A stretch of 37,945 bases of DNA, taken from positions 77,951-115,895 of the forward strand of contig NZ_KN266207.1 of the NCBI RefSeq assembly GCF_000766945.1, in the 5' to 3' direction. The notes under the pieces are model-generated. The model was not told the DNA's origin and made no database searches. It was given only the letters and a program-made list of their open reading frames with translations. This document shows, one piece after another, positions 463 through 37,945 of the stretch. The position numbers and the translations under genes are program-made. Source of the DNA: Cellvibrio mixtus subsp. mixtus J3-8 (GTDB lineage Bacteria; Pseudomonadota; Gammaproteobacteria; Pseudomonadales; Cellvibrionaceae). How positions within the stretch are numbered: position 1 is the first letter of the stretch; each line of letters opens with the position of its first letter.

Positions 463-653
463 TTGATCGCCGCTAGATGGCGCTTAAAACTTTTTTATTG
501 AAATTCACTTCATCCTATTCATTATTCTTTTAAGGCAATAAAAAAAATCTCTTTATTGTCCTTTGGTCCAATGGCGCATTTATCTTCGCAAACTAGACTG
601 CACATCATACCTTTAATGTGATTTTGTTCACGTTCATCCTGTGGAGTCTATCG
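463..653 (+). promoter_or_regulatory. Leader region of the adhesin gene
   Basis: This AT-rich gap lies between the regulator and the adhesin. It holds a weak CGCC/GGCG hairpin just after the regulator stop (about 468-482), followed by a T-rich run that might terminate transcription. It also holds an AT-only-type inverted repeat, CAATAAA at 536-542 and TTTATTG at 552-558. GGAG at 642-645 is a good ribosome binding site for the ATG at 654. No c-di-GMP riboswitch consensus was seen. The promoter itself could not be fixed. Confidence 0.35.
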
Positions 654-3600: not shown

Positions 3601-6600
3601 CCACCAGTGACAGTTTCACTTACAGGGCTAACGATGGCACAACTAACGGCAATATTGTGACTGTCATTATTGAGATAACACCGGTAAATGATGCCCCGGT
3701 TGCCAATAATGACACTGTGACGGTACTCGAAGATGGCTCTGTTACTGTTGCAGTTCGCTCCAATGATACCGACGCTGAAGGCGATCCTCTCACTGTAAAT
3801 TCGGTAACCCAGGGGGCAAACGGTTCGGTAGTGATTGATGCGGTTACCGGCAACCCCATTTATACACCCAATGCCGGTTTCTCTGGCACAGACAGCTTTA
3901 CCTACACTGTTCGTGATCCTGCCGGTGCTGTATCAAATACCGCGACTGTGACGGTCACGGTTACTTCTGTAAACCATGCGCCGGTTGCCGTCCCGGATAC
4001 CTTTACTGTCAGTGAAGGCGGTACCCTGAGCGGTGCCAGTGCGAATGTGTTGACCAATGATAGCGATGCAGACGGCAATACGTTAACTGCGATTCTTGTC
4101 ACGGGTCCGACTAACGGTACTTTGGTGCTTAATGCCAACGGTCAATTCACCTATGTCCATAACGGCAGTGAAACTACGAATGACAGCTTTACTTACAAGG
4201 TCAATGACGGCACTGTGGACGGTAATACCGTCACTGTCACTATCAACGTGACGCCGGTGAATGATGCTCCACAAACCAATGCTGCTGTCGGTACAGGTAA
4301 TGAAGATTCCCTGGTCACCATTACACTTTCCGGTTCTGATGTTGATGGCAGTGTAGCCGGTTACGTCATCAAAACCCTGCCGGCCAATGGTGTGTTGTAC
4401 AGCGATTCCCTGATGACTACCCCCATCAGTGCGGGCGATCTGGTTACAGGCCCTGTTTACTTTATGCCCAATGCCAACTGGAATGGCACCGCTACTTTCG
4501 ATTATGCCGCACGCGACAATCTGGGCCTTGAAGATCCAACACCAGCCACAGCAACCATTACCGTCAATCCGGTAGCAGATCCCGCGGTTTTGGGGGCTGG
4601 TACGGGCAGTGTGAAAGAGGATACACCGGCGCAAACCACCGCATCAGGTACCTTGAGTATTATCGATCCGGACGCTGGCGAACAAGCTTTCCAGGCACAA
4701 ACCAACGTTCCCGGTACTTATGGTTCTTTTTCTGTTAACGCGTCTGGTTCCTGGGTATATACCCTCGACAATACCAGGCCGGCGGTACAAGCATTAAAAG
4801 AGGGTGAAACCAAAACCGAAACCTTCACTGTAGCCAGTATCGATGGTACGACGACCAGTGTTGTTATCACTGTAAATGGCACTAACGATGGCCCGGTGGC
4901 GGCCGCTGATGCCGCCAGTGTGAACCAGAATGCGACCTTAACCCTGACACCGGCGCAACTGCTGGCTAACGATACCGATACAGACGGGGATTCCCTTTCT
5001 CTCGTTTCCGTACAAGGGGCAGTTAACGGCACAGTCAAAATTGACGGGGGCAATGTAGTATTCACCCCGACACCGGGTTATCACGGTCCTGCGTCGTTCA
5101 CTTACACCATTAGCGATGGTCACAGCACCGCTACCGCAACCACTAATGTAACTGTGCAAAAACTTAATTCCCCGCCGGTTGCGAATGATGATAGCGGCGC
5201 CGGTTCGGCGGTTAACCATGGCTTATTTTCCGAGTACTATTCCTACCGCCAGGGTACCGATGGCCCGAACCTGGATAATCTTGCCCAGGTGCTTTCGTTT
5301 ATCAGCAGCCATGCTGCAACGGCGACCTTCACCACAACCCGTCTCGATTACAACGTTGGCAATGTCTTTAATAATGGTTTGGGTTTCGGTAATAACTTAC
5401 AGACTTTTTTGGGCAGTGATGCGGCGAGCCTGACTAATGATCCGGCGAGCTCTTCCGATGCAATTATTCGCATGCGCGGTTTTGTGGAACTGGCACCGGG
5501 AACTTACAACTTCAAGGTTTACTCGGACGATGGTTATCAAATCAAAGTGGACGGCGTAGTTGTTGCTGAAGTCACCACTAACCAAACTCCGACCTCCACT
5601 ACACACACCCAATTCACTATCGCAACGGGTGGCGTGCATACATTGGAGATTGTTTATTGGGATCAAGGTTGGAACGCTGTATTCTCGGCCGAGCTCAGCG
5701 ATAACGCGGGTGTAACCTATAAGCCATTCTCAAATTATTCCAGCCATCATGCGGCAATAATGAATGTGGTGGAAGATATTCCGCTCTCCATTCCTGCCAG
5801 CAGCCTGTTGGCCAATGACACCGATGCAGATGGCGATACCCTGAGTATCCTCAGCGTGCAGGGAGCGGTTAACGGCACCGTTGCACTGGTTGGGGGGAAT
5901 GTCGTATTTACGCCGGCAAGTAACTACAACGGTGCGGCTTCTTTCACATATACCATTACCGATGGCAAGGGCGGCATGGCGACAGCAACGGTCAATTTGC
6001 AAGTTACACCCGTGAACGATGCACCGGTGGCGGTTAACGACACCGCGCTGATGGCGCAAAATGGGACCCTTTCAATTCCTGTTTCAACATTGCTGGCAAA
6101 TGATTCTGACCCTGAAGGTTATGTATTGACCATCGCCAGTGTACAGGAAGCCGTGAACGGTACTGTTAGTTTGTCGGGTTCACATGTCATATTTACGCCA
6201 ACCACCGGCTTTGAAGGTGTAGCGCGCTTTACCTACACCGTTGCCGATCAGGAAGGGCTTACCTCCAAGGCGACAGTTAATGTCACTGTGGGTTCTGCCA
6301 GCACGCCGTCAGTTGTTGTCAGTAAGTCCCTGGTGGCGATTGCCCATGGCACGGGTGGTACCAGTGTGAAATTCCCTATCACTACCAAACTGGTGGATAC
6401 CGACGGTTCCGAATCGCTTTCTATCAAAATTAGCAATGTGCCGACCGGTGTGAGCTTCAATGCCGGGGTCAACCTGGGGGGCGGTGTATGGCAATTCACT
6501 GAGGCGGATTTACCGAACCTGACGTTGAATTTGCCGGGCTCTTACACCACCAACGCAACCCATCTTACGGTGCAAGTCACATCCACCGAGGTCAATGGCG

Positions 6601-7340
6601 GCGCTACGGCGTCGGTATCGTCAGTAGTAACCTTGAAGGCGGGCTACACCACAGTAGATATCACCACTACTGAACATGGCAGCTACACCGGCAGTTCTGC
6701 CAATGAATATATCCAGGGCGGCAATGGTAATAACACCATCAACGGTAGCAATGGCAATAACATCATTAACGGCGGTGCCGGCGATGACAACCTGAGTGCA
6801 GGCAGCGGTTCGGATATTATTAATGGTGGCAGCGGTAATGACACTATCAACGCTGGCAGTGGTTCAGATCATATTTCCGGTGGTTCTGGCAATGACCTCC
6901 TGAAAGGTGGCGATGCCGGTGAGAACTTTGTGGATGTATTCGTGTGGTCACTGGGCGATCAAGGTGCGGCTGGAACCCCGGCGGTCGATACTATCCAGAA
7001 TTTTTCCACCGCAGCAGCGAGTACGAATGGCGTCGGTGGGGACGTGTTAGACCTGCGTGATTTGCTACAAGGTGAATCTGTCGGTGCTTCTAATGGCGCA
7101 GGCAATTTAGCCAACTATCTCCATTTTGAAGTTTCTGGCAGCAACACTATTATCCATATCAGCCATACGGGTGGATTTGGTGCGGATTCGCACAGCGTTG
7201 GCGGTAGTTACACCAGCACTGCAGAGACGCAGCAAATTGTATTGGAAGGCGTAAACCTCCAAAGCACATACTCTGGGGCAACAACTGACCAGCAAATTAT
7301 TACCCAGTTGCTCAACAACAATAAGTTGATCACTGATTAA
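654..7340 (+). CDS. Giant LapA-type RTX adhesin (retention module, cadherin-like repeats, VCBS, PA14, type 1 secretion signal)
   Basis: This surface adhesin of about 2,228 residues is expected to be exported by a type 1 secretion system and held in the outer membrane. ATG 654 is chosen over an upstream GTG (618) because GGAG precedes it by 7 bases and the protein then begins MSNAVATVAFLQGQAW, the form of a LapA retention module. The retention module spans about residues 1-140 and carries T-A-A-G at 109-112, the LapG protease site. Next come about 12 cadherin-like repeats with DxDGD calcium-type linkers, the first six being very alike. They are followed by a VCBS-like repeat (about 4578-4890), a further repeat, a PA14 domain (about 5217-5720), two more repeats, irregular RTX nonapeptides (6718-6918; GSGNDTINA type) and a C-terminal T1SS domain. 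No ABC exporter, adaptor or TolC gene dedicated to it lies in the window. The leftward lapG-lapD pair nearby should control its release. The family call is firm; the ligand is unknown. Confidence 0.93.
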   Translation: MSNAVATVAFLQGQAWAKSPDGSLRPLTVGSTLNADEVLVTAQGAQVQLDFGNGEPIQVSGGLEVAMSRDFSNNTATDTDEAALNDASVQEALTVLEQGGDLLEALEETAAGESGGGTSDGSHDFVRLTRIIEQTDPQSFDYQNASTNTDTTVQTDGNPVAYINRAPSVTDQTLAATEDEPLRGQVIASDIEGDSITYTLTTPATNGVVVLDPVTGQFTFTPAPNYSGSDSFVVTVTDSRGNSSTTTINLNIGAVNDAPTTSDVNLTTDEDTPVAGQVIASDIEGDTLTYTISGQPANGTVTLNPATGGFVYTPNANYNGSDSFVVTVSDGKGGTTTSTVRIGVTPVNDAPTSSDQNLVTAEDTPINGRVVAADVDGDTLGYTISGQPTSGTVTINAATGEFVYTPNANYNGSDSFVVTISDGNGGITSSTINIGVTPVNDAPVSNDQNLTTAEDTPLNGQVVATDVDGDTLAYIVSGQPANGTVTLNPVTGGFVYTPNANYNGSDSFVVTISDGNGGTVTSRINIGVTPVNDAPVSSDVSLITPEDIPVSGQVNATDIDGDTLSFTVTGSPANGSVVLNAGTGSFTYTPNANYNGSDSFVVTISDGKGGTTTSLVTIGVTPVNDAPVASNLNLNTNENTAVNGAISASDADGDTLSFLVSGAPANGTVVLNAATGTFVYTPNAGYSGSDSFLVTISDGKGGTTTSLVSIGVAAVNHAPTAAADTASTDEGTAVTIAVRANDTDPDGDSLKVTGVTQGANGSVIIDAVTGNPIYTPDAGFVGTDNFTYTIDDGNGGTDTAVVTVTVNAVLPTNNAPVASADIIDVAEGGTISSLRGGATSVLANDSDVDGDPLTAVLVSGPANGTLTFHANGEFTYVHNGSETTTDSFTYKVNDGTVDGNTVTVNINVAPVNDAPVSVADKIKVVEGGTATVLDITGATSVLANDSDAEGNTLTAVLVTGPTNGTLTLNANGTFSYTHNGSETTSDSFTYRANDGTTNGNIVTVIIEITPVNDAPVANNDTVTVLEDGSVTVAVRSNDTDAEGDPLTVNSVTQGANGSVVIDAVTGNPIYTPNAGFSGTDSFTYTVRDPAGAVSNTATVTVTVTSVNHAPVAVPDTFTVSEGGTLSGASANVLTNDSDADGNTLTAILVTGPTNGTLVLNANGQFTYVHNGSETTNDSFTYKVNDGTVDGNTVTVTINVTPVNDAPQTNAAVGTGNEDSLVTITLSGSDVDGSVAGYVIKTLPANGVLYSDSLMTTPISAGDLVTGPVYFMPNANWNGTATFDYAARDNLGLEDPTPATATITVNPVADPAVLGAGTGSVKEDTPAQTTASGTLSIIDPDAGEQAFQAQTNVPGTYGSFSVNASGSWVYTLDNTRPAVQALKEGETKTETFTVASIDGTTTSVVITVNGTNDGPVAAADAASVNQNATLTLTPAQLLANDTDTDGDSLSLVSVQGAVNGTVKIDGGNVVFTPTPGYHGPASFTYTISDGHSTATATTNVTVQKLNSPPVANDDSGAGSAVNHGLFSEYYSYRQGTDGPNLDNLAQVLSFISSHAATATFTTTRLDYNVGNVFNNGLGFGNNLQTFLGSDAASLTNDPASSSDAIIRMRGFVELAPGTYNFKVYSDDGYQIKVDGVVVAEVTTNQTPTSTTHTQFTIATGGVHTLEIVYWDQGWNAVFSAELSDNAGVTYKPFSNYSSHHAAIMNVVEDIPLSIPASSLLANDTDADGDTLSILSVQGAVNGTVALVGGNVVFTPASNYNGAASFTYTITDGKGGMATATVNLQVTPVNDAPVAVNDTALMAQNGTLSIPVSTLLANDSDPEGYVLTIASVQEAVNGTVSLSGSHVIFTPTTGFEGVARFTYTVADQEGLTSKATVNVTVGSASTPSVVVSKSLVAIAHGTGGTSVKFPITTKLVDTDGSESLSIKISNVPTGVSFNAGVNLGGGVWQFTEADLPNLTLNLPGSYTTNATHLTVQVTSTEVNGGATASVSSVVTLKAGYTTVDITTTEHGSYTGSSANEYIQGGNGNNTINGSNGNNIINGGAGDDNLSAGSGSDIINGGSGNDTINAGSGSDHISGGSGNDLLKGGDAGENFVDVFVWSLGDQGAAGTPAVDTIQNFSTAAASTNGVGGDVLDLRDLLQGESVGASNGAGNLANYLHFEVSGSNTIIHISHTGGFGADSHSVGGSYTSTAETQQIVLEGVNLQSTYSGATTDQQIITQLLNNNKLITD
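978..989 (+). other. Predicted LapG cleavage site (T-A-A-G) in the adhesin
   Basis: Codons ACG GCT GCC GGT encode T109-A110-A111-G112. In the Pseudomonas fluorescens LapA system, LapG cuts between the two alanines of such a motif just after the N-terminal retention plug. Position, motif and flanking helix (EALEE before, ESGGG after) all match, and a lapG gene is present in the window. Confidence 0.82.
1143..2798 (+). repeat. Six in-frame tandem repeats of exactly 276 bp in the adhesin gene
   Basis: The N-D/R-A-P junction codons start at 1143, 1419, 1695, 1971, 2247, 2523 and 2799, so six consecutive units each measure exactly 276 bp (92 residues). Units share NANYNGSDSFVVT-type cores and a DGKGG/DGNGG turn. 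Later repeats (2799 onward) are more divergent and of differing length. Such arrays usually expand and contract by recombination between copies. Confidence 0.9.
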
Positions 7341-7829: not shown

Positions 7830-9734
7830 TTAACTAATATGGGTTCCGGTTAAACCATCCATACCAACTTTCAATAACACCACTTGTTCGTCATCATTGC
7901 TAACCCCTTCGGCAATAATTTGAATTCCCAGCGAGTGCGCAAGGGTACACAAGCTCTGTACAAAACTCTGGCTACTGGTGTTTGAATCAATTGAGCGCGT
8001 AATCGCTGCATCCAGTTTCAAATAATGTAAACCCATATCCTGTAATTTGCTGAATTGGGTAAATTCCAATCCGACATGCTCTAATCCGACTCTACAGCCT
8101 AACGCGCGTAAACGAACAATAAATGCACGTAATTCTTCCAGATGACGCAACACACAAATTTCCGGGAATTCCAGCCACAATTTTTTTGCTTCAAGTGGGT
8201 TTTCGCTTAACAATGAAATTGCTTGCTCGCGAAACTGGGCATTACACAGCGAAAGCGCAGAAATATTGACAGCGAGATCCTGTTGGATGGACTTCGTTTG
8301 TTTAAGGGCCAGTTTTAAGACTGCCAGATCTATATTTGCCATCAAGCCCAAACGAACAGCCCACGGCATAAAATAACCGGCAGGGCGGTATTCATTATCC
8401 AGGCGCAAGCGAGCAGCTGTTTCCTGGTGCAATAATTTTCCTTCGGTATTTTTTACCGGAAAACTGGCCAGGCGAATTTCTTCTGCAGCCAGTGCCGTCT
8501 CAATACCACTGCGCCATTCACTGAGGTTGTGCTGGGTATAATCGCGTTGCTCGTCATGGGCTACTACTGCGCGGTTACCTTTAAGTTCTGCTTGCGCAAG
8601 GGCGCCGTCCAGTTTATGCATCACCTGGCTGGATTTTTCGCCGCTGGTAAAACTGCACAGCGCTAACGGTATGGCAATCTTGTCAAAACCCCCGGCAATC
8701 AATTGGAAATTTAATGTTTGTGAAATATCAGCACTTACAATATCAATGGGGGTGTCGGTGGGAATCAGTAAACAGAAGTCACTGCCATTCAAGCGCCCGG
8801 CGTGGGCGCCAGGAAATTTTTGGGCGAGGTCAGCAAATACACCGGCAATTGCACGCAGTAATTGGTCGACCTGGTTATGCCCTAACTGCTGGTTGAGCTC
8901 TTGTAACATCATGACTCTGGCGAGTGCCAGAATACCGCGCTTTTCAGCATCTTCGCGCGTCAGTTGTACTTCCAGCAAATTTAAAAAGTGGGTGCGGTTT
9001 GTCAAGCCGGTCAATCGGTCTGTTTGCGAATCGCGGCGCAGTAACTCCAATTGCCTCGCTTCTTTTTCCAGCATGTGTTTAACGCTGGTGGAAAGTGTAT
9101 TCATCGCGCGTACCAAGCGCTGGAATTCTTTGGTTTTAGGTTCTTGCGACACAATAAAACGACGCTCACTAATGGCCTCCGCTTGATCGACAACCACATC
9201 CAGTGGGCGCGAAATATATTTCAGGATCAAGCTGCCAATCACACCGCTGATCAAAGTAACAAATACAAACCAGTCAATTAAATTGCGTGTGTTTTTCCAT
9301 AAGGCTTCCAGGGCGAAACGCGAATGACTTTTTAAAATCAATGTACCGGCTTGTTGCCAGCCATCTTGTACCTGTGCGATCCCGGGGGCTGCATTAAGCT
9401 TTACTTTTTTGGCAAACCATTCCGGAACTGTGTCGATCTTTTCATTTTCAAAATTGCGCGCAACAATCGGATTCTTGTTGGCATCTTGAAAAATAATGTA
9501 TTCATAATGGCCGGAATCAAACTGGGCTGTAATTAACAACTCCAATGTCACAGCATCTTTTTCCGGTAATTGCGAAATCGATAACGCCAGTGAGTTGGCG
9601 TTATCAATATTTTTTAATCGCAATTGCTCCTCCAGGTAGGTTTTTGCGGTAAGCGTACTGATTGCAAAATTACCGCCCAACACCAGTAGCAGCATGGTAA
9701 TGATGCCAATCCACAATTGTTTTATTAGTGACAT
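7830..9734 (-). CDS. lapD: LapD-type c-di-GMP receptor with degenerate GGDEF and EAL domains
   Basis: This 634-residue inner-membrane protein has a first membrane segment at about residues 5-27, a periplasmic output domain at about 28-152, a second membrane segment at about 153-172, a HAMP linker at about 173-225, then GGDEF-like and EAL-like domains. Both catalytic motifs are lost: GGDEF reads NGSDF (316-320) and the EAL glutamate motif reads ETA (438-440). As in LapD, this implies sensing of c-di-GMP rather than making or degrading it. In the known system, c-di-GMP binding by the EAL-like domain lets the periplasmic domain hold LapG and so spares the adhesin. W106 in PEWF may be the counterpart of the LapD tryptophan that contacts LapG. 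It lies 49 bases after lapG in the same direction, so the two are probably one operon, convergent with the adhesin side. Confidence 0.92.
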   Translation of the reverse strand: MSLIKQLWIGIITMLLLVLGGNFAISTLTAKTYLEEQLRLKNIDNANSLALSISQLPEKDAVTLELLITAQFDSGHYEYIIFQDANKNPIVARNFENEKIDTVPEWFAKKVKLNAAPGIAQVQDGWQQAGTLILKSHSRFALEALWKNTRNLIDWFVFVTLISGVIGSLILKYISRPLDVVVDQAEAISERRFIVSQEPKTKEFQRLVRAMNTLSTSVKHMLEKEARQLELLRRDSQTDRLTGLTNRTHFLNLLEVQLTREDAEKRGILALARVMMLQELNQQLGHNQVDQLLRAIAGVFADLAQKFPGAHAGRLNGSDFCLLIPTDTPIDIVSADISQTLNFQLIAGGFDKIAIPLALCSFTSGEKSSQVMHKLDGALAQAELKGNRAVVAHDEQRDYTQHNLSEWRSGIETALAAEEIRLASFPVKNTEGKLLHQETAARLRLDNEYRPAGYFMPWAVRLGLMANIDLAVLKLALKQTKSIQQDLAVNISALSLCNAQFREQAISLLSENPLEAKKLWLEFPEICVLRHLEELRAFIVRLRALGCRVGLEHVGLEFTQFSKLQDMGLHYLKLDAAITRSIDSNTSSQSFVQSLCTLAHSLGIQIIAEGVSNDDEQVVLLKVGMDGLTGTHIS

Positions 9735-28052: not shown

Positions 28053-29921
28053 ATGCAGTCGTTAAAGGCATTCAAAATCTGGTTGAGCATGCAATGCCAA
28101 ATTCTGGGCAATGTCAGTGCCGCCATACTTGTTAAATCCGCAGCGGATAACCCGCTCATCCTGGCGAAGTGGCCCAATACCGATGTTGATACGGTGTTGT
28201 TGTTTGATGCGATTAATCCTGTCATGGAAAAAAAGCGTTTGCATTTGCAAGTGCTGGGTACCAATGACTATCTGCTGGGGCAGCCATTAATAATAGACGA
28301 ACAATTTTGGGGCGTGCTGGTATTGCGCGTTTCATTGTTGGATAAAAAAGCGTTGCCGGGTTTACTGCACTTGCTGAAACCGGGTCAATTCTGGTTGCAA
28401 TTTATGGTGCAATCATTGGGTAGTGAGTTGGCCGCCGGGCGAGAGCCAGCGGTTTCTGCTACCGATGTTGTTTCAACTGTGCAACCCGTCAGGGCAGCAA
28501 CCCCGGATTTACCGTTAGTGTCTTTGAAAGAAAGCATTAATGGTTCGCTCCTGCAATTAACTGCCAGTTTACTTAAAGAAAATTCATTGCAAGAAACCAC
28601 GATTACGCTGGTGAATTTGCTCGCAGGTTTATTGCAAGCAACGCGTGTCAGTATAGGTTTACTGGATTCCAGCGGAAAAAGATTGCAACTGGATGCCGTT
28701 TCCTTTTCGGCGAATTTTGATAAACGCACCCAGGCCATGCAACTCATTACCGAAGCTATGGCAGAGGCAGTCGAACAGGGTGTTCGTATTGATTGTGTTG
28801 TGCCTAATCCGGATCAGGTGGAATCGACCGATGCATCAGCGCTGCTGATTAAACAAGCACATCAACAGTTATTGCACACACAGCAATTGCATGCAGTGAA
28901 TAGTTTTTTATTGCGCAAAGGTGAGAAAATTATCGGTGTACTAACGATTGAACTGGATAGGCGTACAACGCTGGATAGTGATCAGGAATGGTTGGTGCAA
29001 CAGGCAACCCATTATGCAGCGGCAATCATTCAATTGCGCCAGCAAGCTGTTGCGGGTTTATGGCAAGGATTAAGGCAGCGTATTGCTACACGGTTGCAAC
29101 ACTGGTTAGGTGAAGAGTCCTGGCGGGGGAAGTTAATTGCAATCGGTGCAATGGTATTGTTGGTCGCATTATTTGTTCCGGTAAATTACCAACTATCGGC
29201 AGATGCAAGTTTACAGACCACGGAAAAATATCTGTTGGTCTCTCCGCAAGACGCTTATCTCGGTACTATTTCGGCGCGCCCCGGCGATCAGGTAAAAAAA
29301 GGTACGGTGCTCGCGCAATTAAACGATGAAGATCTGCGGTTGGAGCGGCGCAAAGTTGCCAGTCAGGCGCAGCAATATCGTCAGGCTTATGATTCGGCGC
29401 TTGCGAATTCCAATCGTGTGGAAGCGGCTATTGCGAATGCACAATTGGATCAAGCCAGTATTCAATTGCAATTGCTCGACCAGCAATTAACGCGCACCCA
29501 ATTGTTAGCCCCCAGTGATGGCATTGTGGTCTCCGATGATATTTCGCAAACGCGCGGTGCACCGGTAAAACAGGGGGATGTGTTATTTGAAATTGCGGCG
29601 AGCCGGAATTATCTCGTGCAATTATTTGTGGATGAGCGCGATATTGCATTGGTAAAACCGGGGCTGGAAGGCGAGTTAAAATTAAATAGCTTGCCAACGG
29701 AAACATTTAATACTCGCGTAAAATTAATTACACCAATCAGCGAAGTGCGTGAGGGGCGCAATTATTTCCGTGTTGAGCTGGAATTGGTGGAAAATTTACA
29801 GCGTGCAGAATTACTGCGTCCGGGAATGACTGGAACTGGCAAAGTGAATGTCGGCTCGCGCGCATTGGGATGGATTTGGTTCCATGACCTGTGGCATTGG
29901 CTGCGCTTGAGTATCTGGTAA
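28053..29921 (+). CDS. GAF-domain / HlyD-type membrane fusion protein
   Basis: This 622-residue protein combines a cytoplasmic sensor-like part with a periplasmic adaptor. Residues 1-150 have no recognised fold. Residues about 165-325 resemble a GAF domain (LVNLLAGLLQATRVSIGLLD; KIIGVLTIEL). One membrane span lies at 361-378. The periplasmic part has the lipoyl/barrel-sandwich halves (VSPQDAYLGTISARPGDQVK and LLAPSDGIVVS), a coiled-coil hairpin (about 428-480) and a beta barrel. Adaptors of this family bridge inner-membrane exporters and outer-membrane channels. A GAF domain joined to one is unusual and suggests export gated by a small molecule. The start is uncertain because no ribosome binding site is evident; ATG 28089 is an alternative. 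It is followed after 5 bases by the M50 gene. Confidence 0.85.
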   Translation: MQSLKAFKIWLSMQCQILGNVSAAILVKSAADNPLILAKWPNTDVDTVLLFDAINPVMEKKRLHLQVLGTNDYLLGQPLIIDEQFWGVLVLRVSLLDKKALPGLLHLLKPGQFWLQFMVQSLGSELAAGREPAVSATDVVSTVQPVRAATPDLPLVSLKESINGSLLQLTASLLKENSLQETTITLVNLLAGLLQATRVSIGLLDSSGKRLQLDAVSFSANFDKRTQAMQLITEAMAEAVEQGVRIDCVVPNPDQVESTDASALLIKQAHQQLLHTQQLHAVNSFLLRKGEKIIGVLTIELDRRTTLDSDQEWLVQQATHYAAAIIQLRQQAVAGLWQGLRQRIATRLQHWLGEESWRGKLIAIGAMVLLVALFVPVNYQLSADASLQTTEKYLLVSPQDAYLGTISARPGDQVKKGTVLAQLNDEDLRLERRKVASQAQQYRQAYDSALANSNRVEAAIANAQLDQASIQLQLLDQQLTRTQLLAPSDGIVVSDDISQTRGAPVKQGDVLFEIAASRNYLVQLFVDERDIALVKPGLEGELKLNSLPTETFNTRVKLITPISEVREGRNYFRVELELVENLQRAELLRPGMTGTGKVNVGSRALGWIWFHDLWHWLRLSIW

Positions 29922-29926
29922 TTGCT

Positions 29927-32128
29927 ATGAGCGATACGCCTGCTGTTAATAACGGGTTAACTGTTAACAATGATTCTGCCACTGGCAACAACCCTGCGTG
30001 GCAACGCCTTGAATCCTTGCGGCCTTCGTTGCCGCGCCATATCCATATCCAGCGACGCGATTACAATCAGGAGCGCTGGTATTTATTGCAAGATAAAAGC
30101 AATGGACGGTTTCATCGCCTGACGCCATCTGCATGGCGTTTGATTTCGGCAATGAATGGCCGCAATTCATTGACACAAGTGCTTGCAGCGGCTGCAAATC
30201 CACAATTTTATGAATCTGTGGAAGAAATTCCGACACGCGATGATCTAATTCATTTGCTGCAATATTTGCATGTGGCGGATTTGCTGGTTTGCGATATGCC
30301 ACCCAATACCCAGGAGTTATTTGCGCGGCGCGAACAAAAAAAACAACAGCGCTGGTTGCGCCTGTTAATGAATCCGCTTACCTGGAATATTCCACTGGGT
30401 AATCCGGATAAATTACTGGATAAGTTAATGCCGGTAGCGCGTTTGCTGTCCACGCGGACAATGGGCGTGATCTGGTTGCTGGTAGTGAGTTATGCATTGT
30501 TGCAAGCCGGTAATCATTGGACCCAGCTGACCCACGGCCAACTGGACCGCATTTTATCCCCGTCAAATTTATTTTTGCTGTGGTTGACCTATCCCTTTTT
30601 TAAAATCCTGCATGAATTGGGGCATGGCCTGTTTACCAAAGTATGGGGCGGGCAAGTGAATGATTGCGGTATTGTTTTTGTTGTCGGTACGCCTTTGCCG
30701 TACGTGGATGCCAGTGCTGCAACCGGCTTCTATGCCAAACGCCAACGCCTGATGGTCAGTGCAGCAGGTATGGCAGTGGAATTATTTTTAGCTGCGCTGG
30801 CGCTGTTGTTGTGGGTGCAATTATCCGGCGGGTTCCTGCGCGATTTTTTATACAACATTATTTTAATTGGTGGTGTATCCACGTTGTTTTTTAATGGTAA
30901 TCCCCTGATGCGCTTTGATGGTTATCATCTGCTAACCGATGCGTGGGATTTGCCGAATCTCGCTACACGAGCCAATCAACAAGTGAGTTATTTGTTGCGT
31001 CGCTATGCGTTTGGAATTGTCGGTGTATATTCTCCGGCCAGTTCGGTGCGCGAAGCCTGGTTGTTAGCGAGCTACAGTATTGCCGCGTTTATTTATCGCG
31101 TGTTTATGTTGTTTTTTATTATTTTGCTCGTCGCTAATTATTTTCCCGCATTGGGTTTGGTCATTGGTTGCTGGCTGATTTTTTTCCAGCTGGTATGGCC
31201 CGGGTTAAAAGCGTTGCAATTTTTATGGCGCGATAAACAATTAGCCAGTCAACGCAAAAGGGCATTTGCGGTTACCGGTATAACAAGTGTTGTAATCCTG
31301 TTGTTTTTGATTGTTGTGCCATTACCGCAATCAACCGCGGTAGAAGCGGTGTTGTGGTTGCCGGATGAAGCGCGCGTGAAAACGGAATCCAGCGGGGAAG
31401 TTGTGGAGTTGCTGGTCGCAGATGGCAGTTCGGTTGTTGCTGGCGATGCATTGGTGCGTTTGCAAAATCCGACGTTAATTGCCCATCTGGAAGTGCAGCG
31501 GGCCAAGTTGCGTGAATACGATGCGCGTTACCAACGGGCGTGGGTAGAAGACCGTTCGCAGGCGCAAATGTTTGAGCAGGATATTGCCGCTATCAAAGCA
31601 GAAGTGGCGTTGTTACAAGAGCGTGCCACCAATCTGATTGTACGTAGCCCGTCCAGTGGCGTTTTCCGTATAACCCGCGCTTATTATTTACCGGGTAGCT
31701 ATCTAAAGCAGGGTGATGAGTTAGCGATCATTGAAAAGCCGGATGCGGTGCGTGTGCGAGCGGCATTACTGCAGGACGAAGTGGGGTTGGTTAGCCGGGC
31801 CACTGATCGGGTTAGTATCCGTTTTGCCAGTGATCCGGTGAATGTGATATCGGCAGATGCAATTCAGTCTGCACCAATTGCGAGCGAACAATTACCTAAT
31901 CCGGTGTTGGGCACGCAGGGTGGCGGACGTATCGCAGTGGATGGAGCCCAGGCCGGCGGTACCAGGGTAAAGGAAAAGGTATTTTTACTGGATTTGGCCC
32001 TGCGTAATTACGAGCAGAGTGGGCATTTTGGTGAGCGGGCTTACGTGAAATTCCATCATCCGCCTGAACCATTGGCGGCGCGCTGGTATCGAAATTTACA
32101 ACAAGTATTTATCCGTCATTTTTCGTAA
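29927..32128 (+). CDS. PqqD-like / M50 zinc metalloprotease / HlyD fusion protein
   Basis: This protein has 733 residues from ATG 29927; the frame is open from 29891, but that would overlap the upstream gene. Residues about 38-125 resemble a PqqD/RRE-type peptide-binding domain (WYLLQDKSNGRFHRLTPSAW). The middle (about 180-470) is an intramembrane M50 (site-2-protease-like) domain with the zinc motif HELGH (229-233) and the third-ligand motif NPLMRFDGYHLL (D331), with further spans up to 467. The C-terminus (about 470-733) is a HlyD-like adaptor with both lipoyl halves (ESSGEVVELLVADGSSVVAG; LIVRSPSSGVFRI). All predicted zinc ligands are present, so it is probably an active protease. The 5-base gap from the GAF-HlyD stop implies one operon. 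No substrate is known; the giant protein downstream is the obvious candidate. Confidence 0.88.
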   Translation: MSDTPAVNNGLTVNNDSATGNNPAWQRLESLRPSLPRHIHIQRRDYNQERWYLLQDKSNGRFHRLTPSAWRLISAMNGRNSLTQVLAAAANPQFYESVEEIPTRDDLIHLLQYLHVADLLVCDMPPNTQELFARREQKKQQRWLRLLMNPLTWNIPLGNPDKLLDKLMPVARLLSTRTMGVIWLLVVSYALLQAGNHWTQLTHGQLDRILSPSNLFLLWLTYPFFKILHELGHGLFTKVWGGQVNDCGIVFVVGTPLPYVDASAATGFYAKRQRLMVSAAGMAVELFLAALALLLWVQLSGGFLRDFLYNIILIGGVSTLFFNGNPLMRFDGYHLLTDAWDLPNLATRANQQVSYLLRRYAFGIVGVYSPASSVREAWLLASYSIAAFIYRVFMLFFIILLVANYFPALGLVIGCWLIFFQLVWPGLKALQFLWRDKQLASQRKRAFAVTGITSVVILLFLIVVPLPQSTAVEAVLWLPDEARVKTESSGEVVELLVADGSSVVAGDALVRLQNPTLIAHLEVQRAKLREYDARYQRAWVEDRSQAQMFEQDIAAIKAEVALLQERATNLIVRSPSSGVFRITRAYYLPGSYLKQGDELAIIEKPDAVRVRAALLQDEVGLVSRATDRVSIRFASDPVNVISADAIQSAPIASEQLPNPVLGTQGGGRIAVDGAQAGGTRVKEKVFLLDLALRNYEQSGHFGERAYVKFHHPPEPLAARWYRNLQQVFIRHFS

Positions 32129-32183
32129 CGTCCTTTTTTAATCTATAGTAATAACCATTTAGTGTTTTTATATCGAGTTAACC

Positions 32184-33032
32184 ATGTACAACGCATCGAA
32201 AATGTCATTGCTGGTACTTTTATTCAGCAATGAATTATTAGCCCAGACGCAAGAGCCTGCACAGCTTAATTGCCGTATAGAACCTTCGATCACAGTGGAG
32301 ATGAGTAGCGCTGTTGAAGGCGTTATTAGTGAAGTATTGGTCGACAAAAATGCTGTTATTAAAAAAGGCGATGTACTTGCTCGCCTTGATGCCGGTTTGG
32401 AGGCCGCTACTGCCGAATTGCGTCGAGTGCAATCCGAGTTGACCAGTGATGTGCAGTCACAACAATTAGCGCTGGAGTTCAGTGAACGATCCCTCACACG
32501 TGTAAAAGATTTATACGATAAAAAAGCTGCCTCCTTTTCTGAGCTGGATAAACTCAAAACAGAACATGCTATTGCCCAACAGCAACTGCGCCAGGCGCTG
32601 GATCGTAAACGCCAGGCAGAGCTTGAATATAAAAGGGCGCTTGCTGATTTGCAGCGTCGGACCCTCGTTAGCCCGATTGATGGTGTTGTCGTTGAGCGGT
32701 TGAAAGAACCGGGCGAGCATATCGATTTTGAACCGGTATTGAAGCTGGCCAAACTGGATCCGCTACGTGTGGAAGTTTATGCCCCCGCAAGTTTATACGG
32801 AAAAGTGAAAGCCGGAATGAAAGCCAATGTTATTCCGGAATTAGGTGCTGACAGCCGTAGTTATTCAGCCGAAGTCACCCTGGTGGATCAAGTTATTGAT
32901 GGCCCAAGTAATACCTTTGGTATCCGTTTAGCCTTTGCGAACCCCGGCAATCGTTTACCGAGTGGTTTGAAGTGTCGCGTTACTTTTGAGGGTGTAACAC
33001 TGAATTTATTAGAACCACGGACTTTACCTTGA
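32184..33032 (+). CDS. HlyD/RND-type periplasmic adaptor protein
   Basis: This 282-residue protein has a short signal-peptide-like start (MSLLVLLFSNELLAQ), then a compact membrane-fusion-protein fold. The first lipoyl half is VEGVISEVLVDKNAVIKKGD, followed by a coiled-coil hairpin rich in Q/E/R (about 75-155), the second half (RRTLVSPIDGVVVERLKEPG) and a beta barrel. It is shorter than typical adaptors and lacks an N-terminal inner-membrane span, so it may be periplasmic or lie against the outer side of the complex. It is the third adaptor in a row and is followed by the giant LEPR-XLL gene. The C-terminal LEPRTLP is probably a chance resemblance to the LEPR motif. Confidence 0.88.
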   Translation: MYNASKMSLLVLLFSNELLAQTQEPAQLNCRIEPSITVEMSSAVEGVISEVLVDKNAVIKKGDVLARLDAGLEAATAELRRVQSELTSDVQSQQLALEFSERSLTRVKDLYDKKAASFSELDKLKTEHAIAQQQLRQALDRKRQAELEYKRALADLQRRTLVSPIDGVVVERLKEPGEHIDFEPVLKLAKLDPLRVEVYAPASLYGKVKAGMKANVIPELGADSRSYSAEVTLVDQVIDGPSNTFGIRLAFANPGNRLPSGLKCRVTFEGVTLNLLEPRTLP

Positions 33033-33386
33033 TTGCCAGTCGTTGCCTCGATACAGATGGCGTAGTGTGAGTGAGAATAATTTATTACAACAAAATATAA
33101 GGACGCAGCATAAATCTAGATTATTTTTTTATGTAATCCTGCCTTTGCCAGTTTTTGTGCCAGAATTAACAGATTGATATTTTTTGATAACTACTAATAA
33201 CCGATAAATAAGATTTTACGGGTGGATCCAAACCGACACCTCTATAGACTCGGTTTGCTTGCTGACAGTCAAGTTCCTCTATGGTTTGGTGAGCGGGGTC
33301 AGCATAGAAGGATGCAGTTGGTTATTTACCAGTCCTTTAACCCGTAGTGCGATTTATCAAAATCGCATCAATGCAACAGCGAGTCT
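33033..33386 (+). promoter_or_regulatory. Leader of the giant LEPR-XLL gene with three hairpins
   Basis: No gene is present in this stretch. The first ~190 bases are AT-rich and include TTGATA (near 33184) and a small palindrome, AATCTAGATT (33113-33122), before a T run. Three hairpins follow: CAAACCGA/TCGGTTTG (33229-33236 with 33250-33257), TGCTGAC/GTCAGCA (33260-33266 with 33298-33304), and TGCGATTT/AAATCGCA (33348-33355 with 33360-33367). The last ends 19 bases before the ATG and could hinder ribosome access. CCTCTAT occurs in both the loop of hairpin 1 and the interior of hairpin 2. No known riboswitch consensus, including GEMM, was recognised. Confidence 0.5.
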
Positions 33387-36300
33387 ATGTCCAAAACACC
33401 GCGTCATCGCCGTCCTCTGATTGAAGCTCTGGAGCCGAGATTACTGTTTTCTGCAACAGCGGATATCGCTGTGTTTGATGACGGTAATTCAGATGCACAA
33501 TACCTCACGCAGGCTGCGCACGAGGTAGATCTTGTTAGCATTTACATGCCCGATGAAACACATCCGCTCATGATGCAGGATGCGGGCAACGATATTGCGC
33601 ACATTGATACTGTTATCTTTGTTGACACCGCCGTCGATAATTACCAAACCCTTGTCAAGGATATAGAAACTTCACTAAAAGGTGATTCGGTAGCTATTGT
33701 TTACCTTGATAACACCAAAGATGGTTTGGTACAGATCAGTGATTACCTCGCAGGCGCCAGTGGTATTTCTGCAGTACATATTATTTCCCACGGTGTTGCT
33801 GGCAGTGTGCAATTGGGAACCCAGGTGCTCAATGAAAATAATATTGCGCAATACCAGCAATCATTAACCGCGTGGAAAAATGCACTCAGCGATGATGCCG
33901 ATATATTGTTATACGGTTGCGATGTTGCGGCGAATCAAAGCGGTATGAATTTGTTGCGGCAATTGAGTGATATTACCGGTGCCGATGTCGCGGCGAGCAA
34001 TGATTTAACCGGTAACGCAGCCAATGCAGATTGGGATTTGGAAGCGCGCGTGGGCCATATTGAAACTGCATCTATTTTTAGCAGCAACCAATCCATGGAA
34101 TGGCAGGGTGTATTAGCGGATGTTGTACATTTGTACTCGGGTGTGGCCACTAATGAACAGGCCATTCCAACATCCGGCAATGTGATGCAAGGTGTCCAGT
34201 TAACTTCCAGTCAAACTGTAGACCGTATTCAGGTAATGCTGGCAAATCACGGCACCAGTTCTACTTCAGTACAAATGATTGTGCATGAACATAGCTACAA
34301 CGGCACCGCAATTGCCACTGCAACGGTGGATACCAGTTCACTGGGAAGTTCGCTGGGATGGGTGAATTTTGATTTTGTAGCCAAGACATTTAACGCTTAC
34401 ACGGTTTATTGGATCGAATTTAAAACCAACAATGGCGCAGACAATCTGGTAGGGATTGGTTATATCAACAGCAACGTTATTAGCAGCGAATTTGTTGTTA
34501 ATAACAGTGGCGATGCGAGCAAGGATATGGCGATTGCCCTGGTGGATGTAGAAAACCGCGCGCCTACTCTTGCCAATCCAATCCCAAATCAAACGACAAA
34601 TGAAGAAGCATGGTTTAGTTACACCTTTGCGGCGAATACGTTTAATGACCAGGATGGTGATACGCTCACTTACAGTGCTACGTTAGCGAATGGCAATCCG
34701 CTACCGCCGTGGTTAAGTTTTAATGCTGGCACGCGCACATTTAGCGGTGTACCTGATGATGGTGATGTTGGAACTATTTCAATAAAAGTCACTGCCAATG
34801 ATGGTAAGGGTGGCAGCATTGATGACACGTTTGATTTAACAATCATTAACATTAATGATAATCCGTTTTTAAATATCCCTGTTCCCAATCAAAATGCAAC
34901 GGAAGATTCCGTATTTAATTATACCTTTCCTGCCAATACGTTTGGCGATGGTGATGTGGGAACAACTTTCACTTACACCGCTGAATTAGCCGGTGGCGGT
35001 GCATTGCCAGCCTGGCTAAATTTTGATTCGGCAACGCGCACATTCAGTGGCACACCACTTAATGGTGATGTTGGTACTATCTCGATTAAATTAACTGCAA
35101 ACGACGGGGCTGGTGGGACAGCAACTGACAATTTCGATATTGTTATTGCAAACACCAACGACGCACCCACCGTAGCCAATCCAATTCCCAATCAAACAGC
35201 TACCGAAAACGTACTCTTTAATTACACATTTGCGATTAATACATTCCATGATCAGGATGTGGGTAGCACTTTAACCTACACCGCACAAATTCCCGGTGGT
35301 ACTCCACTACCAGCGTGGTTATCGTTTGATAGTGCAACACGTACATTTAGCGGTACGCCCTCTAATGGCGATGTGGGCAATATCACCATTGAAGTCAGGG
35401 CAAGTGATGGAACAGCAACAGTTTCCGATTTTTTTGATTTGAATGTCCAAAATGTTGGCTCATCCAACGTCGTGTATGAAACCTCGGGGCCGTCAACGGA
35501 TACACAGGTCATCGGTTCCGGTGTTCCGTTTTTCCAAAGCTTTTCGCACAATAGCGTTGGTGCTACATACACGATCGACTCCATTGTATTGCAGTTAATA
35601 AAAGATCCTTCCGCGTCGCTGCAGACAATCACAGTGACTTTATTATCCGGTGCTTACAACGGCACTGTCGTTGGTACTGCAACTATTTCTTCTGCAACCA
35701 TAAGTACCACGCTGGCGTGGAAGGCGTTTGACTTTACTAATAAAGTCCTCACGGATAATCAATTATATTTTATAAAAATTGAATCAAGCAGCGTGGACGG
35801 ATTGGTCAAAGCCGCTATCCATAATTCGGATGTTTACCCCAACGGCTCTTACCATTCCAGTGGCGGATCCCCCGACATTACGCGTGATGTCGCCTTCCAG
35901 ATTTCCAGTGGCGCGAATATAGATCCAGTTATTACCAATCCCATTCCCAATCAATCTGCAACGGAAGATGCAGTATTTAATTTTCAATTTGCAGCAAGTA
36001 CCTTTAATGACGCTGATGTTGGCGATACGCTAACTTATACAGCAACTATGGCGGATGGCAGTGCATTGCCTTCATGGTTGAGTTTTAATGCAGCAACGCG
36101 AACTTTTTCAGGTACTCCTGCCAATGCGGATGTAGGAACCATCTCCATTAAAGTAACAGCAGATGATGGTAATGGTGGCACACCGGCAACCGATACGTTC
36201 GATTTGGTGGTTGTAAATACCAACGATGCGCCGACAGTGGCGAATCCAATTCCCAATCAAAATGCCACTGAAGATTCTGCATTTAATTTTACCTTTGCAA

Positions 36301-37945
36301 CCAATACATTTGCCGACCAGGATATCGGTAATACACTTAGTTACAGCGCGCAACTTGCTGGCGGTGGGGCACTCCCTGCCTGGTTAACGTTTGATGCCGC
36401 GACGCGCACATTTAGTGGCACACCCACCAATGCTTTTGTTGGTACTGTATCGATAGATGTTATTGCGAATGATGGTAATGGCGGTACAGTTACCGATACG
36501 TTTAATATCATTGTTGCAAATACCAATGATGATCCAATTGTTGCCAACGCCATTCCCAATCAAAATGCCACTGAAGATTCTTTATTTAATTTTCAGTTTG
36601 CAGCCAACACATTCAGTGACCAGGATGTGGGTGATTCGCTTACGTATTCTGCCCAATTAGCGGGTGGCGGCGCGTTGCCATCCTGGATAAGTTTTAATGC
36701 AGCAACGCGCACTTTTAGCGGAACACCAGCCAATGGAGATGTTGGTAGTTTTTCCGTTGACGTTATTGCGAGTGATGGTAACGGTGGTTTGGTAACAGAT
36801 ACTTTCACTATTAACGTTGCCAATGTGAATGATGCACCGTCAGTGAGTATTGCGCTCGCGGATTACTACACTAGCGAACAGGTCGCGGTAAATTTGCATG
36901 GCACAGGCATCACGGTTTCTGATGTTGATAGTACTAACATTACGTTGACGCTCACTGGCACGGGCAGCCACAGCCAATTAACAGCGAACCCAGGAACAAC
37001 GGGTGTTAGCATTTTTTCCGGCAATAATTCACCCACGCTGGTGCTCACCGGGACGCTCACCCAAATTAATGATTTCCTCGCAGGAAATAATGGCGGCACA
37101 TTAACCTATCGTTTGGCCGGCGACACACCCATCGCAACGGCGACGTTAACGATTACCGCGAGTGATGGTGCATTGACAGGTAATGGCACCACATCTATCC
37201 ATATTGCTGCTGTTAATGATGCACCGGTAAATACGGTTCCGGGTGCGCAAGTAATAGCAGAAGATAATGCCTTGGTATTTAGTGCGGGCAATGGCAACCA
37301 GATCCAGGTAAATGATGTCGATGCTGCAAGTGGAAATCTGGAAGTCACTTTATCGGTGACGAATGGTACGCTCACGCTCGCCGGTACCAACGGATTAAGT
37401 TTTACTACGGGTGATGGCACTGCGGATTCAACATTGGTATTCACCGGCACGCTCGCCGATATAAATACCGCACTGGCGACGTTAACGTTTAACCCAACAG
37501 CAAATTACAACGGTGCTGCAGTTTTATCGCTTACCACCAGCGACCTGGGCAATACTGGTAGTGGTGGAACACTCACTGATACTGACACCGTTAATATCAC
37601 GATAAGCGCTGCTAATGATGCACCGACAGTAGCCAATGCAATTCCCAATCAAAATGCGACAGAAGATTCTGCGTTTAATTTCCAGTTTGCAGTGAATACT
37701 TTTGCGGATGTCGATGCTGGTGCAACGCTAACGTATTCTGCACAATTAAATGGCGGTGGTGCGTTGCCGTCGTGGTTAAGTTTTAATGCGGCGACACGCA
37801 CTTTTAGTGGTACACCGGCAAACGGTGATGTTGGAACTATTTCCATTGATGTGATTGCCGACGATGGCAACGGTGGAACGGTTACCGATACATTTGATAT
37901 TGTCATCGCCAACACGAACGATGCGCCAACAGTCGCGAATCCAAT
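33387..37945 (+). CDS. Giant LEPR-XLL / DUF4347 surface protein with putative-Ig repeats (3' end outside window)
   Basis: The frame stays open for 1,519 codons to the window end. ATG 33387 is the only good start after an in-frame stop at 33345. The N-terminus has basic MSKTPRHRRP then IEALEPRLLFSA, the LEPR-XLL motif of giant secreted proteins. Residues about 70-240 match DUF4347, with HIISHG (131-136) and ILLYGCDVA (173-181). A beta-rich domain of about 140 residues follows. Next come putative-Ig/CADG-like repeats of about 100 residues beginning NPIPNQ, interrupted by a second copy of the beta-rich domain (about 35460-35925) and by two different repeats (about 36836-37620). It is probably exported and attached to the surface, like other repeat giants. 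It lacks the LapA-type retention module and LapG site. The C-terminus and any RTX or T1SS signal are unseen. The three adaptor genes immediately upstream are its likely partners. Confidence 0.9.
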   Translation, partial: MSKTPRHRRPLIEALEPRLLFSATADIAVFDDGNSDAQYLTQAAHEVDLVSIYMPDETHPLMMQDAGNDIAHIDTVIFVDTAVDNYQTLVKDIETSLKGDSVAIVYLDNTKDGLVQISDYLAGASGISAVHIISHGVAGSVQLGTQVLNENNIAQYQQSLTAWKNALSDDADILLYGCDVAANQSGMNLLRQLSDITGADVAASNDLTGNAANADWDLEARVGHIETASIFSSNQSMEWQGVLADVVHLYSGVATNEQAIPTSGNVMQGVQLTSSQTVDRIQVMLANHGTSSTSVQMIVHEHSYNGTAIATATVDTSSLGSSLGWVNFDFVAKTFNAYTVYWIEFKTNNGADNLVGIGYINSNVISSEFVVNNSGDASKDMAIALVDVENRAPTLANPIPNQTTNEEAWFSYTFAANTFNDQDGDTLTYSATLANGNPLPPWLSFNAGTRTFSGVPDDGDVGTISIKVTANDGKGGSIDDTFDLTIININDNPFLNIPVPNQNATEDSVFNYTFPANTFGDGDVGTTFTYTAELAGGGALPAWLNFDSATRTFSGTPLNGDVGTISIKLTANDGAGGTATDNFDIVIANTNDAPTVANPIPNQTATENVLFNYTFAINTFHDQDVGSTLTYTAQIPGGTPLPAWLSFDSATRTFSGTPSNGDVGNITIEVRASDGTATVSDFFDLNVQNVGSSNVVYETSGPSTDTQVIGSGVPFFQSFSHNSVGATYTIDSIVLQLIKDPSASLQTITVTLLSGAYNGTVVGTATISSATISTTLAWKAFDFTNKVLTDNQLYFIKIESSSVDGLVKAAIHNSDVYPNGSYHSSGGSPDITRDVAFQISSGANIDPVITNPIPNQSATEDAVFNFQFAASTFNDADVGDTLTYTATMADGSALPSWLSFNAATRTFSGTPANADVGTISIKVTADDGNGGTPATDTFDLVVVNTNDAPTVANPIPNQNATEDSAFNFTFATNTFADQDIGNTLSYSAQLAGGGALPAWLTFDAATRTFSGTPTNAFVGTVSIDVIANDGNGGTVTDTFNIIVANTNDDPIVANAIPNQNATEDSLFNFQFAANTFSDQDVGDSLTYSAQLAGGGALPSWISFNAATRTFSGTPANGDVGSFSVDVIASDGNGGLVTDTFTINVANVNDAPSVSIALADYYTSEQVAVNLHGTGITVSDVDSTNITLTLTGTGSHSQLTANPGTTGVSIFSGNNSPTLVLTGTLTQINDFLAGNNGGTLTYRLAGDTPIATATLTITASDGALTGNGTTSIHIAAVNDAPVNTVPGAQVIAEDNALVFSAGNGNQIQVNDVDAASGNLEVTLSVTNGTLTLAGTNGLSFTTGDGTADSTLVFTGTLADINTALATLTFNPTANYNGAAVLSLTTSDLGNTGSGGTLTDTDTVNITISAANDAPTVANAIPNQNATEDSAFNFQFAVNTFADVDAGATLTYSAQLNGGGALPSWLSFNAATRTFSGTPANGDVGTISIDVIADDGNGGTVTDTFDIVIANTNDAPTVANP
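34575..37945 (+). repeat. Putative-Ig repeats of about 300 bp in the giant protein gene
   Basis: The N-P/A-I-P-N-Q-type unit starts lie at 34575, 34872, 35178, 35937, 36243, 36546, 37635 and 37938. Adjacent units are 297-306 bp apart. Each unit has the core LPxWLSFNAATRTFSGTP and ends with a TNDAP-type junction. Gaps correspond to the inserted beta-rich domain (35460-35925) and to two longer cadherin-like repeats (36836-37620). The array continues past the window end. Confidence 0.9.

Follow-up and report, generated by a model that had tools for sequence, protein, structure and literature searches.

Giant proteins that open with a LEPR-XLL leader are, judged by comparison of genomes and sequences, very probably the cargo of a bacterial cassette of adaptor genes. 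The cassette is described here from a window, that is, the whole analysed stretch of 37,945 nucleotides of Cellvibrio mixtus subsp. mixtus J3-8 DNA (G000:C1:77951-115895), in which three adaptor genes precede the gene of such a giant. We lean towards reading these genes as a leader-guided export module with the following mechanism. The three adaptor genes and the giant would form one export module, and LEPR-XLL would be a leader dedicated to it rather than an ordinary Sec signal. The RRE of the M50-HlyD protein would bind this leader at the inner membrane, as RREs do with RiPP leaders; the M50 domain would then probably cut the leader off and may form, or adjoin, the membrane passage. The GAF-HlyD, M50-HlyD and HlyD proteins, together with a TolC-type channel encoded elsewhere, would provide the conduit for the giant. 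In most relatives, a truncated SecA from the same gene run would be the motor, while in the SecA-less branch of the window the housekeeping SecA, the sole full SecA there, would be the likeliest motor. A membrane stretch at the C-terminus may hold the window giant on the cell. An earlier note on this DNA, which proposed that a PqqD-like domain recognises the leader, an M50 domain cuts it and the adaptors guide the product outwards, is partly supported by the analysis.

The cassette, the giant and the neighbouring genes

All four genes lie on the forward strand of the window. The GAF-HlyD adaptor (28053..29921; Pfam GAF 3e-7, HlyD_3 2e-17) carries its GAF domain at about 28587-29027 and its HlyD barrel at about 29265-29828, with a single hydrophobic segment between the two. 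Five bases past its stop is the ATG, at 29927, of a PqqD/RRE-M50-HlyD fusion protein of 733 aa (29927..32128), which was delineated from Pfam, NCBIfam, an alignment and an AF2 model. The third gene encodes a HlyD-type periplasmic adaptor (32184..33032) with an RND_mfp match over the cut-off and a signal-peptide-like N-terminus. The LEPR-XLL/DUF4347 giant with He_PIG/tandem-95 repeats follows (33387..37945) and continues past the window to coordinate 42191. It begins at 33387 with MSKTPRHRRPLIEALEPRLLFSA and contains the leader core LEPRLLFSA at residues 15-23 (33429..33455) and a DUF4347 domain at residues 76-243 (33612..34115; Pfam 6e-54). The LEPR-XLL model NF012209 gives the window giant 18.3 bits against a cut-off of 17 (23 bits in another search). 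This gene order had been read from the open reading frames alone, and coordinates and Pfam/NCBIfam matches agree that it is real. The lack of an ABC ATPase or TolC-like gene between the adaptor genes and the giant was likewise confirmed in the window, and no ABC transporter was found in or beside the cassette when the window and downstream proteins were scanned.

The GAF-HlyD, M50-HlyD and HlyD genes are a conserved gene run in the window and its relatives. A genome scan with the fusion alignment and one peptide pattern found at least 591 relatives, of which 80 named loci were analysed. A GAF-HlyD-like frame precedes the fusion in 76 of these 80 (of at least 591), and a HlyD-labelled same-strand frame follows it in 60; many named loci are cut by contig ends, and frame labels are those of the best BLAST match. 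The best matches in the scan come from Cellvibrio and Gilvimarinus (among at least 591), and the relatives span alpha-, beta- and gammaproteobacteria, Myxococcota, Thermodesulfobacteriota and MAGs labelled Nitrospira.

At its C-terminus, the giant has a hydrophobic stretch (KD19 1.83) and then a basic tail. Two N runs lie within its repeats (L003:4898-5478), and the apparent frame break there, between frames of 1546 and 1197 aa, is probably an assembly matter. The genes 3′ of the giant are PAS-GGDEF (L003:9183-10694, directly after the giant), FtsK and LolA, and no T1SS part was found among the proteins scanned downstream. A gene similar to this PAS-GGDEF gene follows the conserved giant C-terminus in 14 same-family loci (tblastn), one of which, L096, has a hybrid histidine kinase in the PAS-GGDEF position.

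An ordinary T1SS (OEP-OmpA, ABC, HlyD; L002:12162-17801) stops about 150 bases to the left of where the window begins, some 34 kb away from the giant. The earlier note had held that a complete T1SS just beyond the window would refute its reading. One is indeed present, but it adjoins a LapA-type adhesin (618-7340) with a retention module and a T1SS C-terminal signal (NCBIfam), which is followed by LapD-like (GGDEF/EAL; 7830-9734) and LapG-like (C93; 9784-10488) genes. The position of this complete system immediately left of the window would suit a reading in which it exports the giant as well and the adaptor genes belong to unrelated efflux. This is very improbable. An NCBIfam search found no T1SS C-terminal signal on the giant, on which ground export by the LapA-type T1SS was rejected, and the adaptor genes accompany LEPR giants across the phylum. 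Moreover, T1SS-type ABC matches were met in only 4 of the 80 named loci (of at least 591), all of them outside the cassette (one ABC query, E<=1e-6).

Distribution of the cassette and of the leader

The co-occurrence survey suggested in the earlier note was run at two levels, and cassette and leader were found together far beyond chance. At the level of the phylum, 63 of 299 genomes have LEPR-XLL in a frame of 600 aa or more, and 60 of these 63 also have the M50 fusion. The fusion is present in 85 of the 299 genomes; 25 have the fusion only and 211 have neither (Fisher 9e-39, a p-value that treats genomes as independent and overstates that independence because the genomes are related). The cut-offs were E<=1e-30 for the fusion profile, with three candidates scored per genome, and E<=0.05 for LEPR-XLL, in frames of no less than 600 aa. 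Three genomes have LEPR-XLL without the fusion. In G127, a probably spurious match lies mid-frame, at residue 487 of 999. G286 is 57% complete and its leader sequence was not read, and G309 is 86% complete and has a real leader at the frame start.

Among 100 genomes of the same family, the M50 fusion occurs in 40 and DUF4347 in 46: 35 have both, 5 only M50, 11 only DUF4347 and 49 neither. The fusion threshold here was about E 1e-26, since the 40 genomes reach down to 5.1e-27 and the next, G003, stands at 6e-16; any match to the fusion at 1e-3 is found in 56 of the 100, many of them HlyD only. LEPR-XLL above the cut-off, counted in frames of 400 aa or more, is present in 24 of the 100, with NF012209 rows under the cut-off dropped, and all 24 fall within the 40 fusion genomes (Fisher 8e-13, with the same overstated independence).

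The same genomes hold 63 DUF4347 places, 40 of which match a fixed pattern for a LEPR-XLL-like N-terminus. Among these 40 giants, 31 lie within 6 kb of the M50 fusion, as counted from giant ends estimated from frame length, and the remaining 9 are in fusion-bearing genomes. Only one of the 23 pattern-negative giants lies as close; it is among three (G062, G037, G042) in which a LEPR-like motif is visible by eye and was missed by the pattern or start codon. Of the 20 DUF4347 giants that lack LEPR-XLL, none is within 6 kb of a fusion, and 7 are in fusion genomes. Since the counts are 31 of 40 against 0 of 20, the cassette is linked with the leader and not with DUF4347, and DUF4347 as the link was rejected. 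The LEPR-less giants carry this head domain on a protein that is exported differently. By eye, those examined (L045-L058, L062, L104) mostly have Sec-like N-termini, and several have OmpA-/barrel-like C-termini. The longest reported frame listed with LEPR-XLL near its start has 19,427 aa (G160:C115:112865-112924; first 5 kb read, L239).

The leader itself was compared in 50 chosen loci, where its core is x-E-x-L-E-x-R-x-L-x-S-A-D/T. The E at -2 is kept in 45 of 50, the R at +3 in 49 of 50 and the A at +8 in 50 of 50; these loci were found by a pattern that constrains R +3 and A +8, but not E -2. The longest stretch without charged or strongly polar residues has a median of 7 residues (5-16) in LEPR leaders versus 18 (11-27) in 16 leaderless giants, and the 12-residue hydropathy has a median of 1.62 versus 1.90, with overlapping ranges. 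The uncharged hydrophobic core is thus short, yet its hydropathy overlaps that of Sec signals. As a sequence, the LEPR-XLL leader does not look like a normal Sec signal; because of the overlap, plain Sec use is weighed below as an alternative.

Candidate leader reader and protease

The N-terminal domain of the fusion (residues 39-116; 30041..30274) is a candidate leader reader. It was modelled from an alignment, A1, of the window protein with 25 of 35 fusion frames (another alignment, A3, omits the divergent A1 members L082, L083 and L096). The AF2 model of the window fusion with these 25 relatives has a mean pLDDT of 84 and gives three strands followed by helices in this domain. In a Foldseek search with the whole model, the best 50 matches were all HlyD-type proteins, and the N-terminal domain was therefore modelled alone, with 22 relatives (mean pLDDT 88). 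Its nine best Foldseek matches are RREs or RRE-bearing RiPP enzymes, with E values of 0.01-0.21 and none at or below 0.001. They include TbiB1 as well as a lasso-peptide B1 protein, in structures that hold leader peptides (5v1v, 5v1u, 6jx3; target TM 0.62-0.73), and we take 4v1t, 5why and 5wgg to be RRE-bearing structures also. Of 23 isolated N-terminal domains, 17 match Pfam PqqD at E<=1 (best 3e-5); that of the window protein has E 0.015, short of the Pfam cut-off. Among 26 full-length fusion proteins, 7 match at E<=0.1. The PqqD-like domain that the earlier note had seen is modelled as an RRE/PqqD-like fold, and this domain probably reads the LEPR-XLL leader.

The M50 domain has an intact protease motif, as had been claimed for it. 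Pfam Peptidase_M50 matches the window fusion weakly (E 0.002-0.003, under the cut-off). However weak this match, H229, E230, H233, N325, P326 and D331 are invariant in 26 aligned relatives; the first three belong to the HExxH metalloprotease motif HELGH (residues 229-233; 30611..30625) and the others to the NPLxxFD motif (residues 325-331; 30899..30919). HExxH is present in 79 of the 80 named loci (of at least 591), the exception, L172, being an overlong frame. The named loci give no test of NPLxxFD, because this motif served as their search pattern. In the alignment and the AF2 model, HExxH and the second motif lie in membrane helices, as in M50 site-2 proteases.

The best NCBIfam model of the window fusion is that of the daptide biosynthesis intramembrane metalloprotease (NF041824, E 3e-35), with a score of 122 bits, well under the curated cut-off of 300. 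The YydH/LiaK epipeptide maturation protease model (NF058609) matches as well. By sequence, this likeness is a resemblance and not membership. Daptide and YydH/LiaK-type enzymes cut leaders, and we put the chance that the M50 domain removes the LEPR-XLL leader at about even.

Site-2 proteases usually cut membrane helices, and this supports a different role by analogy with LapG/LapD, in which M50 would cut not the leader but the membrane stretch at the C-terminus, and the giant would be released on a signal from GAF and the neighbouring PAS-GGDEF protein. The recurrence of the GGDEF gene after the conserved C-terminus in the 14 loci mentioned above also fits such release. Against it, the tails of 23 long frames that end immediately upstream of GAF-HlyD are weaker (median KD19 0.91, 2 of 23 above 1.6, versus 1.83 in the window giant); these frames come from named loci, start outside them and are putative LEPR giants. 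The conservation of HExxH in the named loci also tells against C-terminal release, which we regard as quite unlikely. Control of leader-guided export by the GAF domain is a guess.

Motor, route and relation to known systems

The system is not undescribed, as the earlier note had supposed, since its commoner, SecA-bearing form was published in 2015. Kamneva, Poudel and Ward (2015, PMC4452313) described a secondary SecA_DEAD / HlyD locus in which GAF-HlyD, Peptidase_M50-HlyD and HlyD genes occur together, in some cases next to an OEP gene. In their proposal SecA is the ATPase and M50 might serve as the pore; they called the broader role of the locus completely unknown and named no substrate (PMC4452313). 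The paper also places the locus in Planctomycetota and Verrucomicrobiota, and it names the operon META1p2402-2399 of Methylorubrum extorquens AM1. A word-start search of the main text of PMC4452313 finds Peptidase_M50 named and no LEPR, PqqD, giant, leader or DUF3467. In the passages found in the openly licensed PubMed Central literature, LEPR-XLL is mentioned in passing. Among the openly licensed PubMed Central papers, preprints excluded, no paper was found that ties the 2015 locus to LEPR-XLL or leader recognition, and none that describes an export route for LEPR-XLL giants. The window cassette is a SecA-less variant of the 2015 locus, now with a likely substrate; it is filed as a variant and not as a full member because a SecA gene was searched for and is absent. 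Linking the 2015 locus with LEPR-XLL giants, whose reported frames reach 19,427 aa, gives both questions one answer.

In the relatives, a same-strand SecA-like frame lies downstream of the fusion in 70 of the 80 named loci (of at least 591), at 120 bases or less or overlapping in 61 and at 724-1,094 bases in 9. Frames above 600 aa make up 63 of the 70. The cassette SecA-like protein matches the SecA profile at 38-655 of 666 with its residues 8-606 of 783, and the last part of SecA is taken to be missing because the match stops at residue 606. In a tree, 38 cassette SecA are split from 20 housekeeping SecA by one branch (SH-aLRT 100). This tree was built from 38 of 73 cassette SecA above 600 aa together with 20 of 31 housekeeping loci, with L197, L095 and others left out. 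In an earlier, larger tree (42 cassette and 24 housekeeping rows) the split was not clean; one of its rows, L197, had been read in the wrong frame, and the long branch of L095 attached to the housekeeping stem.

The second SecA also follows the fusion across genomes. Two or more SecA_DEAD matches at 1e-40 were found in 33 of the 299 genomes, all within the 85 fusion genomes and in 0 of the 214 others. In 48 genomes of one class, 20 of 22 strong matches to the cassette-SecA profile lie within 135 bp of the fusion gene, and the other 2 are on contigs without a listed fusion (three candidates were scored per genome). On a Pontibrevibacter plasmid, a LEPR-XLL protein, DUF3467, an adaptor, the fusion (annotated as PqqD family peptide modification chaperone), a “DEAD/DEAH helicase” and an adaptor form one run, and this “helicase” has the sequence of a cassette SecA (43-46% identity). 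A DUF3467 protein was found in 32 of 123 sources searched, including the query's own source; among the 28 of 32 measured, 26 have it upstream of GAF-HlyD at a distance of no more than 600 bases, while L149 has it elsewhere and in L148 it overlaps. A SecB-like role for DUF3467 was considered and dropped; no solved relative was found. In Candidatus Parabeggiatoa (L167:12333-13868), a 511-aa frame at the SecA position has weak SecA similarity (none at 1e-6) with no GEGKT seen, and is perhaps a decayed SecA. In several Alphaproteobacteria (L128, L132, L133, L155, L158, L162, L174, L178), the fusion and the SecA-like gene are separated by an additional frame of about 265-365 aa.

The window genome differs from these relatives. 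It has one full SecA and, besides, one weak partial match in a 729-aa frame; a genome search found no accessory SecA in it or in the window cassette, and no DUF3467 in the genome. A SecA_DEAD protein without a full SecA_SW domain, found in those 70 named relatives (of at least 591), is not in the window cassette. The window therefore belongs to a SecA-less branch; Cellvibrio and Gilvimarinus loci are among the 10 of 80 named loci (of at least 591) that lack SecA. The observation that the cassette lacks an ATPase gene thus stands for the window copy and not for its relatives, which usually have a SecA-like ATPase, not an ABC one. For the window organism, the housekeeping SecA can be put forward as the motor tentatively.

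The single full SecA, with no accessory SecA, would also fit a simpler route, in which the giant crosses the inner membrane by SecYEG and the housekeeping SecA, the LEPR leader is a weak signal peptide and the cassette acts afterwards only, as an outer-membrane passage and maturation device. The basic n-region of the leader, its overlap in hydropathy with Sec signals and the C-terminal hydrophobic stretch, which would suit a Sec-type stop-transfer (KD19 1.83), agree with this route. However, the leader has a short uncharged core (median 7 versus 18 residues), ordinary Sec would not need the SecA-like gene of the 70 named relatives, and the LEPR-less DUF4347 giants, with their mostly Sec-like N-termini, are never found within 6 kb of the fusion. 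Ordinary Sec is an unlikely route on these grounds, though the strongest of the alternatives weighed here. Leader-guided export might go further and constitute a separate Gram-negative secretion system, a reading to which we give somewhat less than even weight. Here RiPP-style recognition (RRE, intramembrane protease and HlyD) would select LEPR-XLL proteins and a truncated SecA would drive them; the cargo would measure 2,000 to perhaps over 19,000 residues, and the M50 membrane domain would make up the channel or a part of it. The window would represent a SecA-less branch whose giant stays anchored.

Several known systems resemble the cassette in part. The 2015 locus has the same GAF-HlyD, M50-HlyD and HlyD genes and, in most relatives, a SecA-like ATPase in which the wing-scaffold domain is missing or reduced to a fragment, whereas a SecA-like gene is absent from the window copy. 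Type I secretion (HlyB/HlyD/TolC; LapA-type) likewise has HlyD adaptors and giant repeat proteins, and a TolC-type gene is sometimes close to the cassette (L093, L095, L082). Unlike Type I secretion, the cassette has no ABC ATPase, and the tag on the giant is N-terminal rather than C-terminal.

Gram-positive accessory Sec serves large surface proteins and also relies on a second SecA (SecA2). In contrast to SecA2, the cassette SecA lacks the last part of SecA and has HlyD and M50 partners; in a tree that holds no SecA2, it is separate from 20 housekeeping SecA. Finally, RiPP maturation metalloproteases (NF041824, NF058609) and RREs such as that of TbiB1 share with the fusion an RRE-like fold and an M50 motif, here in one protein. 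The window fusion scores below the curated cut-offs of these families and adds a HlyD domain, and RiPP maturation proteases act on small peptides, whereas the presumed substrate of the cassette has thousands of residues. The link suggests that a recognition domain of small peptide products also sorts giant proteins.
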